Assembly: GCF_004346685.1 (NCBI RefSeq)
Contig: NZ_SMCO01000001.1
Location: 806,001 to 870,000, forward strand
Source: Sulfurirhabdus autotrophica
Lineage (GTDB): Bacteria > Pseudomonadota > Gammaproteobacteria > Burkholderiales > SMCO01
Length of the DNA stretch: 64,000 nucleotides
Direction: 5' to 3'
Shown here: positions 1 through 45,860 of the stretch, one piece after another
How the letters are laid out: the number at the start of each line of letters is the position of its first letter
How positions within the stretch are numbered: the stretch's first letter is position 1
Program-made: the position numbers and the translations under genes
The notes under the pieces: model-generated
The model's database searches: none
What the model was told of the DNA's origin: nothing
The model's input: the letters and a program-made list of their open reading frames with translations, nothing else

Positions 1-1977
1 AAAAATTGCAACCAAAACAAACACGCCTATAATCATCGCGAATGCATAGTGGTAAATATAGCCAGACTGGAAATACCTGATCATTCTGGAACTCCAGCCA
101 ATTAAGCGGGCCGTTCCATTTACAAAAAATCCATCAATAATTTTTACATCGCCAATACGCCATAACACGCCACCCAACTTGCGCACACCCCCGGCAAAAA
201 ACCAGTCATTGAAAGCATCAAAACCGTATTTATTCTCTAGAATGATATAAATCAGACTAAAACGATCCTTCATCATTGCAGGGATATCAGGCCGTTTCAT
301 ATAAAAATACCATGACACCACTACCCCTGAAAGCGCCAGCCAGAAAGGCAACGTCATTAATGAATGTAATGCCATAGCAAATGCGCCATGAAATTCATGG
401 GTCAGTTCTTCCATCGCAGAATGCGCTTCTGAAATATGAATCACACCTTTAAAGTAGTCACCAAACAGCATCGGTTCGATTGCCATATACCCAATTACCA
501 CCGAGGGGATTGCCAGCATAATCAATGGCAAGGTAACGACCCATGGTGATTCATGCGGCACACCACCGTGACCATGCCCATGGTGATCATGGCCATGATC
601 ACCATGGGTATCAAATCGCTCTTTACCATGAAAAACCAGGAAATACATACGGAAAGAATAGAATGCGGTGACAAAAACGCCCGCCACCACCGCAAAATAA
701 GCAAAACCTGAACCAGGCAAATGCGACAATCCTACTGCTTCTATAATGCTGTCCTTGGAATAGAACCCGGAAAAGAATGGTGTTCCGATAAGAGCCAGCG
801 AACCAATCAAAGAGGTAATCCAGGTGATGGGCATGTATTTGCGCAGACCACCCATGTGACGAATATCCTGATTATGGTGCATTCCAATAATCACGGAACC
901 TGCCGCCAGGAACAATAGCGCTTTAAAAAAAGCGTGGGTCATCAGATGAAAAATAGCCACTGAGTATGCAGATGCGCCAAGCGCGACAGTCATGTAACCC
1001 AATTGTGACAAGGTTGAATACGCCACCACACGTTTAATGTCGTTTTGAATAATACCCAGAAAGCCCATAAACAATGCCGTGATTGCCCCAATGACCATCA
1101 CAAAAGACAAAGCCGTTTCTGACAGTTCAAACAAGGGTGACATCCGGGCCACCATAAATATACCCGCAGTTACCATCGTGGCAGCATGAATCAGCGCAGA
1201 GATCGGTGTTGGACCTTCCATGGAGTCAGGCAACCATACATGCAGTGGAAACTGCGCGGATTTACCCATAGCGCCGATAAACAACAAGATACAAATCACG
1301 CTCATCAGAGACCATTCCTGGCCCGGAATCAGCTGAATGGTATGTTCAGCCAACTCTGGTGCTCGCGCAAAAACAGCAGCATAGTCCAGCGTGCCAAATT
1401 GCCATAACACCATTCCGATACCTAACAGAAAGCCGAAATCCCCTACTCGATTGACCAGAAACGCCTTCAGGTTCGCATAGATAGCCGTTTGCCTGGTATA
1501 CCAGAAGCCAATCAGTAAATAGGAAACAAGTCCCACCGCTTCCCAACCGAAAAATAGTTGCATGAAGTTATTGGCCATGACCAACATCAACATGGAGAAA
1601 GTAAACAGGGAAATATAGCTGAAGAAACGTTGATAACCAGGATCATCATGCATATAGCCGACGGTGTATATGTGTACCATCAGCGACACAAACGTCACCA
1701 CTAGCATCATCATGACAGTGAGTTTATCGATTAAAAAACCGATCTCAAATCGTGTATCACCCGTCGTTAACCAAGTATAAACACTGCCATTAAAGGTATG
1801 CCCAGCCATTACATCCTGAAAAATTACCAGGGAAGCAACAAATGAAACGGCAACACCAATAATCGTTATCCAATGAGCGCCGGAACGACCGATAAATTTC
1901 CCAAACAGGCCAGCCACTATTGCTCCAAATAGCGGCGCCAGCGGTACCAATAAATACAGTTTTTGCATTTCAGTCAT
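1..1977 (-). CDS. nuoL: NADH-quinone oxidoreductase subunit L (3' end cut by window edge)
   Basis: Large antiporter-like proton-pumping membrane subunit of complex I. The frame is open from an ATG at 1977 to base 1 (659 codons, no stop), so probably only a few C-terminal residues are missing; family length is about 610-680. The N-terminus reads MTEMQKLYLLVPLAPLFGAI, and the visible end (SGYIYHYAFAMIIGVFVLVA) fits the final membrane helix. Between the penultimate helices there is a histidine-rich loop (about 549-611) with HGDHGHDHHGHGHGG. It lies 95 bases downstream of nuoK in the same operon; nuoM and nuoN should follow beyond the left edge. Identification is firm. Confidence 0.95.
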   Translation of the reverse strand, partial: MTEMQKLYLLVPLAPLFGAIVAGLFGKFIGRSGAHWITIIGVAVSFVASLVIFQDVMAGHTFNGSVYTWLTTGDTRFEIGFLIDKLTVMMMLVVTFVSLMVHIYTVGYMHDDPGYQRFFSYISLFTFSMLMLVMANNFMQLFFGWEAVGLVSYLLIGFWYTRQTAIYANLKAFLVNRVGDFGFLLGIGMVLWQFGTLDYAAVFARAPELAEHTIQLIPGQEWSLMSVICILLFIGAMGKSAQFPLHVWLPDSMEGPTPISALIHAATMVTAGIFMVARMSPLFELSETALSFVMVIGAITALFMGFLGIIQNDIKRVVAYSTLSQLGYMTVALGASAYSVAIFHLMTHAFFKALLFLAAGSVIIGMHHNQDIRHMGGLRKYMPITWITSLIGSLALIGTPFFSGFYSKDSIIEAVGLSHLPGSGFAYFAVVAGVFVTAFYSFRMYFLVFHGKERFDTHGDHGHDHHGHGHGGVPHESPWVVTLPLIMLAIPSVVIGYMAIEPMLFGDYFKGVIHISEAHSAMEELTHEFHGAFAMALHSLMTLPFWLALSGVVVSWYFYMKRPDIPAMMKDRFSLIYIILENKYGFDAFNDWFFAGGVRKLGGVLWRIGDVKIIDGFFVNGTARLIGWSSRMIRYFQSGYIYHYAFAMIIGVFVLVAIF

Positions 1978-43590: not shown

Positions 43591-43635
43591 AAAAAACCAG
43601 AGTAAAACCTGTACAGGTTTCGCTCTGGTTTTTTC
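43591..43635 (+). terminator. Rho-independent terminator after dnaJ
   Basis: AAAAAACCAGAG, an inner segment that itself pairs (AAACCTGTACAGGTTT), then CTCTGGTTTTTT: a 12-base stem followed by U residues. Ends the grpE-dnaK-dnaJ operon. Confidence 0.9.
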
Positions 43636-43748: not shown

Positions 43749-44132
43749 ATGAATCTTGAAAAAGTGTTTTTCGCATTTTTCATTGTTTTGGCACTCACCT
43801 TGAATTTTGGTTTTTTCATCGGAGACATCGCCAACCCGGTTCATCATAGTGAATATGAATTATTTGCTGCCATAGTGGTGAGCCTGATCGCTACGGTTTT
43901 AAAATTTGGTGATCGCACGCACCTCGGTGCTGTTTTACTGGCAACCAGCCTGGTAGCTGACTTGCAGTTAATTACCGCGGCCATCGTCTGGACCATCGTT
44001 GAACACGGGACCCAAACAGGCATGACTCCGCATATCATGGCAATCATTGTTTCTCTTTCTGGTGGTGCATTACTGGCCAATATTACTTCTGTCGTCCTTT
44101 TTGTCGCCGAAACATTAGCATTTCGCCGGTAA
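43749..44132 (+). CDS. DUF6394 membrane protein
   Basis: 127 residues with four hydrophobic helices and short polar loops; recognised by overall pattern (FGFFIGDIANPVHHSEYELF, KFGDRTHLGAVLLATSLVAD) rather than by known activity. No catalytic motif. It sits 21 bases before a potassium channel on the same strand, so the two are probably cotranscribed and may work together. Confidence 0.7.
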   Translation: MNLEKVFFAFFIVLALTLNFGFFIGDIANPVHHSEYELFAAIVVSLIATVLKFGDRTHLGAVLLATSLVADLQLITAAIVWTIVEHGTQTGMTPHIMAIIVSLSGGALLANITSVVLFVAETLAFRR

Positions 44133-44153
44133 CTCTGGCCCGGAGGAAAGCGT

Positions 44154-45860
44154 TTGCATAATATTGGCTATATTTTACTGCGGCGGATTCATACACCTCT
44201 GATTGCGCTGATTTGCGTTTACGCTGTTTCCATCCTGGGGTTCGTATTGATACCCGGTGTCGACAATGCCGGTAAACCATGGCACATGAGTTTCTTTCAT
44301 GCGTTCTACTTCGTGAGCTTCATGGGCACCACCATCGGTTTTGGCGAGATACCCTACCCATTCACGGATGCCCAAAGAATGTGGGCTACAGTCGGTATTT
44401 ACGCTACCGTAATTACCTGGCTTTACAGTATTGGTTCAGCACTCTCTGCGCTACAAGACCCATCGTTCCGCTCAATTCTCCAGCAAAATACCTTCCGACG
44501 TGCAGTGAATCGCATTACAGATCCTTTCTTTCTAGTGTGTGGTTATGGAGATACAGGCAGCATGCTAGTGCGTGCACTTTCTGAATCAGGGTATCGTTCG
44601 ATCGTAATCGACAAGTCACAGGATCGCATCACCGCTCTGGAACTGGAAGACTTAAGATCTCCCGTCCCAGGGTTATGCGCTGATGCTGCAGAACCCGACA
44701 ATCTGATTCTGGCCGGATTAACCCATGCCAACTGCCGGGGTGTGATTGCCTTAACGGATGATGATGACGTCAACCTGAAAGTAGCCATTACCAGTAAGCT
44801 ACTTAATACCCGCATCCCGACTATCGCTCGTGCAGAATCACGGGAAATTGAAGCCAACATGGCTTCATTCGGCACTGATGAAATCATCAATCCATTCGAT
44901 ACTTTTGCCGGCCGCCTCTCGTTAGCCATTCATGCACCAGGTATGTTTTTGCTCTATGAATGGATGACTGCGGTACCTCACGAACCTTTGAGAGAGCCGA
45001 TCTTTCCGCCACATGGTAGCTGGATTTTGTGTGGATACGGCCGCTTTGGCAAGGCAGTACACAAGCATTTGTTGTCCGAAAACATCCCCCTGACTTTTAT
45101 TGAAGCCACCCCAAAATTGACTGAATCGCCGACGGGAACGATCACCGGAAGCGGAACTGAAGCCAGCACTTTGCTGGAGGCAGATATCATGAACGCGGTA
45201 GGGATTGTCGCCGGCACAGATAATGATGCAAACAACCTTTCCATCATCATGACGGCTATCATGCTTAATCCCAATCTGTTCATAGTTGCCCGTCAGAATA
45301 CCCATCGTAATGACAGCATCTTCGCAGCTGCAAAACTGGATCTGACTATGCAGCGTGGAAGTGTGATTGCAAATAAGATCTTTGCTCTCATCACAACGCC
45401 CCTCTTATCCGAGTTTTTGCAACTTGCCAGATTGAATACAAATGAATGGGCCAATCAGCTAGTCAGTCGTATCGGTGGTATTTCCGGTAATGAAGTGCCT
45501 CAAACCTGGGCACTATATATTACCCAGCAAGACTCACCCGCCCTGTTCAAGGGGATTTTAGAAGCATCACAAGTTTGCATTAGCGATCTTTATCGTGACC
45601 CGCGCAATCGCAATGAACGCCTGGCTTGTATTGTACTATTGGTGCAGCGCGGCGACACCGAGTACCTATTACCAGACGAAGATTTCAATCTGCAACAGGA
45701 AGACCGCATCCTGCTATGCGGACGATTTGGCGCCAGCACGCAAATGGAATGGATAGCCAAAAATCACAATGTATTTAATTACCTGATCACAGGAACGGAA
45801 AGAGCAAGCGGTGCTTTCTGGCAATGGCTGGAGAGAAAAACGCCTGCAAAATCTCGTTAA
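44154..45860 (+). CDS. Potassium channel with two RCK domains (TTG start)
   Basis: 568 residues. Two membrane helices (about 14-36 and 76-98) frame a pore loop whose filter is TTIGFGE (59-65), a variant of TVGYGD. Two RCK/TrkA-N units follow, with Rossmann loops GYGDTG (130-135) and GYGRFG (294-299), and TrkA-C-like segments. The start is TTG 44154, backed by a perfect GGAGG seven bases upstream. Probably a ligand-gated K+ channel of the inner membrane. The ligand (NAD(H), nucleotide or Ca2+) is not readable from the sequence. Confidence 0.9.
   Translation: MHNIGYILLRRIHTPLIALICVYAVSILGFVLIPGVDNAGKPWHMSFFHAFYFVSFMGTTIGFGEIPYPFTDAQRMWATVGIYATVITWLYSIGSALSALQDPSFRSILQQNTFRRAVNRITDPFFLVCGYGDTGSMLVRALSESGYRSIVIDKSQDRITALELEDLRSPVPGLCADAAEPDNLILAGLTHANCRGVIALTDDDDVNLKVAITSKLLNTRIPTIARAESREIEANMASFGTDEIINPFDTFAGRLSLAIHAPGMFLLYEWMTAVPHEPLREPIFPPHGSWILCGYGRFGKAVHKHLLSENIPLTFIEATPKLTESPTGTITGSGTEASTLLEADIMNAVGIVAGTDNDANNLSIIMTAIMLNPNLFIVARQNTHRNDSIFAAAKLDLTMQRGSVIANKIFALITTPLLSEFLQLARLNTNEWANQLVSRIGGISGNEVPQTWALYITQQDSPALFKGILEASQVCISDLYRDPRNRNERLACIVLLVQRGDTEYLLPDEDFNLQQEDRILLCGRFGASTQMEWIAKNHNVFNYLITGTERASGAFWQWLERKTPAKSR

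Follow-up and report, generated by a model that had tools for sequence, protein, structure and literature searches.

In many water and sediment bacteria, the gene for a probable nucleotide-sensing potassium channel adjoins a gene for a protein of DUF6394, a Pfam family of unknown function, and the question that such a locus raises is whether the two genes make up one system. We have examined one such pair, found in a 64,000-nucleotide stretch of the genome of Sulfurirhabdus autotrophica (contig NZ_SMCO01000001.1, positions 806,001 to 870,000; hereafter, the window), together with its relatives in other genomes. An earlier note on this DNA, made from its letters alone, had proposed a two-part system in which the small protein could be an accessory subunit of the channel. 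We show that the adjacency of the two genes is far beyond chance. Because DUF6394 is encoded beside the channel so consistently, it is probably a dedicated channel subunit, and we consider it likely that the two genes encode a single system, a channel resembling GsuK of Geobacter sulfurreducens with an obligate four-helix DUF6394 membrane subunit.

The two genes were found together or not at all

The pair comes in two architectures. In form A, that of the window, the DUF6394 gene is first and is followed by the gene for a channel with two RCK domains; in form B the gene for a single-RCK channel comes first and a divergent DUF6394 gene follows. A DUF6394 profile search of 398 genomes from the phylum of the window, in which, as in the channel searches of these genomes, scoring was limited to the first few candidates of each genome, gave 33 matches in 29 genomes, with 32 matches in 28 genomes over the cut-off. 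All 32 adjoin a channel gene on the same strand, with the channel frame broken in one case (genome G141, locus L024). With the window channel as the query (E 1e-20), the form-A channel was found in 20 of the 398 genomes, exactly the 20 that carry a form-A DUF6394. The form-B channel search (E 1e-20) reached 35 genomes; the score was at least 340 bits in 12, exactly the 12 with a form-B DUF6394, and the best channel outside these 12 scored 142 bits. Thus, since the genome sets match (20/20 and 12/12), the two genes of each form were found together or not at all.

Same-strand adjacency holds in 293 of the 293 loci that contain both genes, the window included (281 of form A, representing 273 distinct sequence pairs, and 12 of form B); the searches and collections overlap, and some genes are present twice among these loci. 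The earlier note had suggested counting co-occurrence and adjacency across genomes, and the counts refute a random association. In each of the best 80 of 233 relatives in a genome collection, the channel gene follows directly on the same strand, its frame being interrupted in two (L032 and L075). The first set of loci comprised 159 stretches, including the window, after removal of 21 shorter or duplicate copies: 144 of form A, 12 of form B, one cut by a contig edge (L117) and two without DUF6394, the latter being below-cut-off matches to PF19931, the Pfam entry for DUF6394. A further 139 loci contributed 137 of form A and two without a channel (L277 and L274). The three channel-less loci are all cut by contig ends: L117 ends just after DUF6394, L277 is the same gene as L117, and in L274 the DUF6394 frame itself extends to the last base of the sequence. 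Over-cut-off matches outside the locus set are two contig-end fragments of genome G566 and a second copy in G530. Two PF19931 matches under the cut-off, one in G025 and the second of those in G534, are not DUF6394 by a wider profile and were not counted.

The occurrence of DUF6394 over the cut-off is patchy, with 7 of 61 genomes of one order, 30 of 54 of another and 81 of 116 of one family. Forms A and B reside together in four genomes (G006, G010, G014 and G169), and two form-A pairs are present in each of three others (G610, G612 and G630), which indicates that the two genes are retained and duplicated together. Plasmid and phage records gave no match at E 1e-5. In L024, the form-B channel is spread over two overlapping open reading frames (positions 230-1413 of that locus) in different frames, with a TGA within the matched stretch; the copy appears to be broken, unless the assembly is in error, and it adjoins an intact DUF6394.

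The gap between the two genes in 100 form-A loci has a median of 19 nucleotides (range, -4 to 335); it is at most 58 nucleotides in 90 of them, and in 10 the genes overlap by 1 or 4 nucleotides. A stop or a different reading frame separates DUF6394 from the channel in 293 of 293 loci. No third operon member recurs: the commonest neighbour family (open reading frames of at least 100 amino acids, blastp E 1e-8) is present in 15 of the 116 loci of at least 5 kb.

Organization of the pair in the window

The pair lies on contig C1 of the 3.86-Mb genome (Table 1). Open reading frames, Pfam matches and coordinates all agree with the arrangement described in the earlier note, DUF6394 and then, after 21 nucleotides, a channel with two transmembrane helices (2-TM) and two RCK domains. 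The score of the window protein on PF19931 compares with a gathering cut-off of 30.8 bits, and a form-B DUF6394 scores 93 bits; the channel matches TrkA_N with 133.5 bits over two stretches and Ion_trans_2 with 25.7 bits. The TTG start proposed for the channel is plausible, judging from the GGAGG that precedes position 44154 with a spacing of 7 nucleotides. Moreover, in 100 form-A loci, the window included, the estimated channel starts (in each locus, the start codon closest to the aligned region) are ATG in 86, GTG in 10 and TTG in 4. ATG stands at the homologous channel start in six loci (L032-L037) whose DUF6394 is 85-87% identical to that of the window.

Upstream, after dnaJ, an inverted repeat with perfect 12-base arms and a run of T at its end was seen by eye at 43591-43634, and may be the terminator of a dnaK-dnaJ transcript ahead of the gene pair. 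A terminator scan did not list this repeat, its loop probably being longer than the scan allows.

Table 1. Position of the gene pair and of its main elements in the window
Feature	Position	Strand	Details
DUF6394 gene	43749..44132	+	127 aa; PF19931, 130.2 bits
Intergenic gap, 21 nt	44133..44153	+	Shine-Dalgarno GGAGG at 44142-44146
2-TM double-RCK potassium channel gene (putative)	44154..45860	+	568 aa, TTG start; TrkA_N, Ion_trans_2
Selectivity filter TTIGFGE	44328..44348	+	channel residues 59-65; from sequence
RCK1 nucleotide loop GYGDTG	44541..44558	+	channel residues 130-135
RCK2 nucleotide loop GYGRFG	45033..45050	+	channel residues 294-299

A GsuK-like channel with two conserved nucleotide loops

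The window channel has the helices of a 2-TM pore (4-32, 47-59 and 72-100, in the fusion model described below) and a TxGxG-type filter; its two TrkA_N stretches lie in one chain, as tandem RCK domains do, and the fold matches GsuK, TrkA and MthK. We infer that it conducts K+ and is gated by nucleotides. The filter, which the earlier note had set against TVGYGD as a change that may alter selectivity, was located at the site given in Table 1. Among the 144 form-A channels compared (of 281 form-A loci), all have the pattern xT(I/T)GxxE, with glutamate in place of aspartate at residue 65; the invariant glutamate is therefore a family trait, and the filter is ordinary within the form-A clade. The second form-A copies in G630, G610 and G612 (L279-L281) have the filter TTTGFGE. 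In form B, the filter is TTVGYQE, glutamine replacing the second glycine of GYG, in the 11 of 12 channels that are readable (L021, L022, L023, L025-L028, L031 and L128-L130). This site is normally a glycine in potassium channel filters, and the glutamine may affect selectivity.

The single channel chain also holds two distinct nucleotide loops, as the earlier note had read it. A strict GxGxxG is found in RCK1 of 130 of the 144 form-A channels, in RCK2 of 125 and in both of 113, and the end of the second strand of RCK1 is acidic in 142. Since both loops are conserved, two nucleotide sites are plausible, and the sensing of two ligands would fit them.

The best sequence matches of the channel in the PDB are to GsuK (4gx5, E 2.7e-14; 4gx0, E 1e-13). 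GsuK (4GX0, 4GX1, 4GX2 and 4GX5; PMC3510474) likewise carries RCK1 and RCK2 behind a 2-TM pore in a single chain, and the GxGxxG loop of RCK2 is aligned in both channels. The differences are that RCK1 of the window channel keeps GxGxxG whereas the aligned stretch of GsuK is without it, that the filter is TLGFGD in GsuK but TIGFGE here, and that DUF6394 is always beside the channel here; the terms "auxiliary" and "operon" are absent from the main text of the GsuK paper (PMC3510474). In the same paper, ADP and NAD+ are reported to activate GsuK and Ca2+ to inhibit it (PMC3510474).

With respect to other families, the pore and RCK similarity to the Kch type of Escherichia coli (NCBIfam NF007828) amounts to 60.4 bits for the window channel and 75 for a form-B channel, but the curated cut-off of 425 bits is not reached. 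Kch is a single chain with six transmembrane helices (6-TM). A match to the NCBIfam entry GSU0071_fam (E 0.025, far below the cut-off) was missing in two other members and was rejected.

DUF6394 is more conserved than the pore

AlphaFold models DUF6394 as four helices (3-23, 35-52, 58-87 and 94-126; mean predicted local distance difference test, pLDDT, 92.4; predicted template modelling score, pTM, 0.85), and the segments predicted to lie inside carry on average 2.98 lysines and arginines, against 0.08 for those outside (144 form-A proteins). The protein is thus predicted to be a bundle of four transmembrane helices with both termini in the cytosol. In 138 distinct form-A pairs, the mean pairwise identity is 67% for DUF6394, as compared with 59% for the pore (residues 38-100) and 55% for the transmembrane region of the channel, 48% for RCK1, 46% for RCK2 and 32% for the C-terminal part. 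That DUF6394 is more conserved than the pore would argue that it makes many contacts. Nine residues (F10, K52, G54, R56, G60, L74, A107, A110 and N111) are invariant in 122 DUF6394 sequences of both forms, in which D71 is nearly so, and the K52-x-G-x-R56 motif lies in the predicted cytosolic loop that joins helices 2 and 3. D71 is replaced in L280 and L281, two of the second form-A copies. The DUF6394 profile has no match among PDB sequences at E 10, and Foldseek gave none at E 0.001 or better for the DUF6394 model alone. The name DUF6394 is absent from the open-licence papers searched, although print elsewhere may differ.

How DUF6394 could serve the channel

The strict linkage supports the proposal of the earlier note that DUF6394 could be an accessory subunit; the physical contact, its stoichiometry and the effect of DUF6394 on the gate are what we infer. 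Four channel chains would form a tetrameric, potassium-conducting pore, and their RCK1 and RCK2 domains a cytosolic gating ring that would resemble that of GsuK and sense adenine nucleotides, of the NAD or ADP type. DUF6394 would be a permanent subunit, packed against the pore domain and needed for its gating or stability.

Some of our results weigh against a permanent, obligate subunit. A tree of pore plus RCK1 was built with 50 rows (20 of the 144 form-A channels, 11 of the 12 of form B and 19 of 20 others; L188, with the filter TTVGYDE, fell outside the search pattern and was not included). Form A makes up a single clade (support 100/100), as does form B (100/99), and the two together are split from the other channels with a support of 95/83, on a short branch; since they group, it is likelier that the partnership arose once and the gene order changed afterwards than that there were two independent recruitments. 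The channel loci without DUF6394, 20 of 41 such rows from the form-B channel search, include three (L180, L190 and L191) that look like 2-TM RCK channels with no neighbouring DUF6394; such channels exist, and a pore of this kind can therefore do without DUF6394. L195, which the tree labels as 2-TM, starts close to the beginning of its contig and groups with the 6-TM channels; on the strand opposite to its channel, the DUF6394 profile gave a partial match of 15 bits, which was not counted as DUF6394.

For coevolution, mean-field direct coupling analysis (DCA) with a reduced alphabet was run on 138 and then on 245 paired sequences (effective numbers, 98 and 137), and compared with 45 and 60 simulations along the tree, respectively. 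The strongest coupling between DUF6394 and the channel was S45-I108 in both runs. The maximum between DUF6394 and the transmembrane region was equalled in 4/45 and 22/60 simulations, the mean of the top scores between them was reached in 45/45 and 59/60, and the maximum between DUF6394 and the RCK domains in 45/45 and 60/60. Within the channel, the maximum between transmembrane helices was above all simulations (reached in 0/45 and 0/60), but the internal contacts of DUF6394 itself were missed (59/60 simulations as high). DCA thus finds the transmembrane contacts of the channel and misses those within DUF6394, and is therefore uninformative for or against contact. Mutual information with average product correction gave no usable pattern on the paired sequences.

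A special case of the subunit explanation, with which its probability overlaps, is that the pair is a natural split of the Slo/Kv layout, in which DUF6394 would be a free-standing S1-S4-like domain, bound to the S5-S6/RCK subunit where a voltage sensor would sit; we regard this as unlikely. In the same doubtful scenario, the arginine-less DUF6394 would couple a membrane signal (voltage, pH or lipid) to the nucleotide-sensing gate of a separate S5-S6-RCK1-RCK2 subunit, perhaps through D71 and N111 in mid-membrane, and form B would correspond to a 6-TM channel with one RCK domain, split in the same way. Slo1 (BK) also has a pore followed by RCK1 and RCK2, and the addition of DUF6394 gives four plus two transmembrane helices; Slo1 is one polypeptide, however, as against two here, and DUF6394 is without gating arginines. 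Being encoded by two separate genes, the pair falls outside the Slo family, in which S1-S6 and RCK1-RCK2 are a single chain. The predicted four-helix bundle with both ends in the cytosol has the layout of a voltage sensor, but its helix 4 has no arginine repeat, residues 94-125 being free of lysine and arginine, with only the terminal R126 and R127. VIA matched the DUF6394 model to residues 715-858 of TRPA1 (9m8n_A; Z 9.8, root mean square deviation, rmsd, 3.2, 111 residues aligned), which we take to be its S1-S4 region; yet generic four-helix bundles scored best (Z up to 13.3), and designed bundles, FAT domains and others ranked above channel domains. With generic bundles on top, the fold of DUF6394 is a common arrangement, and we neither assign the protein to a family on this basis nor rule one out. 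A profile comparison by hhalign with 15 S1-S4 regions of 6-TM RCK channels revealed no homology of DUF6394 to voltage sensors (probability 0.8% over 10 columns). In favour of a split, 15 of the 20 channel loci without DUF6394 look, from the position of the filter, like single-chain 6-TM channels, many with an arginine-rich S4.

Because the stop codon and the 21-nucleotide gap of the window happen to be in frame, a fusion model was also folded, in which both genes are read through with the stop as glycine (703 residues; pLDDT 89.9, pTM 0.75, linker residues 128-136 below 50). The best VIA matches of this model were KtrAB (5but_A; Z 24.4, rmsd 2.7, 262 aligned) and, with the same Z, GsuK (4gx5_D; rmsd 7.1, 366 aligned), and Foldseek returned Slo1 and Slo2 among its matches. 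Five Slo1 structures were among the 50 VIA rows, and four of the five alignments reach into DUF6394: 6v35_A (model 1..580 on 113..1041; Z 21.2, rmsd 5.1, 466 aligned), 9dkf_A (1..581 on 100..1051), 9dic_A (1..561 on 100..954) and 9dkn_A (56..578 on 99..1048). The fifth, 7rk6_A, covers model residues 139..580 and leaves DUF6394 out (422 aligned); with 9dkn_A starting only at residue 56, the correspondence of the helices is unsettled. Since 466 residues are aligned with 6v35_A and 422 with 7rk6_A, only about 45 residues of DUF6394 would be superposed. The overlay on Slo1, with a starting helix that differs between rows, is thus suggestive, a hint and not a placement.

It is rather improbable that DUF6394 is instead an assembly or insertion factor that helps to insert, fold or tetramerise the channel and stays outside the finished complex, as has been proposed for MstX (Mistic) and YugO. 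The DUF6394 gene directly precedes the channel gene in form A, as might suit such a helper, but lies downstream of it in form B, and one would expect a helper to be less constrained than a mean identity of 67% implies. YugO of Bacillus subtilis is a putative channel that presumably carries an RCK domain. In the two-gene MstX-YugO operon, the gene for the small protein comes directly before that of the putative potassium channel (PMC3667857), as in form A, whereas form B has the reverse order. Moreover, MstX is described as having few orthologues (PMC3667857), whereas DUF6394 is conserved across several classes. Finally, it is very improbable that DUF6394 acts separately, as a transporter or sensor that does not touch the channel and is linked to it only by the operon and by a common role in potassium or pH balance, for although operon partners need not touch and DCA found no coevolution signal between the two, separate roles should leave some solitary genes, and the 398 genomes hold neither a solitary DUF6394 over the cut-off nor a solitary channel of either clade.

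A probable membrane partner for a bacterial RCK channel

On accessory subunits of prokaryotic RCK channels, the open-licence literature searched yielded nothing on the DUF6394 pair, and MstX-YugO is the only comparable two-gene case found there. A transmembrane subunit dedicated to an RCK channel would be a rarity among bacteria; here it is apparently obligate, and it is more conserved than the pore. Engineered split hERG channels are reported to gate although their voltage sensor and pore are not covalently joined (PMC5805800), and if DUF6394 were indeed a detached S1-S4-like domain, the pair would be a natural counterpart of these. In any event, with a GsuK-like channel and a DUF6394 subunit as the likely parts of one system, a Pfam family of unknown function becomes a directly testable channel subunit, and the pair could reveal the way in which a pore and a four-helix membrane module are coupled.
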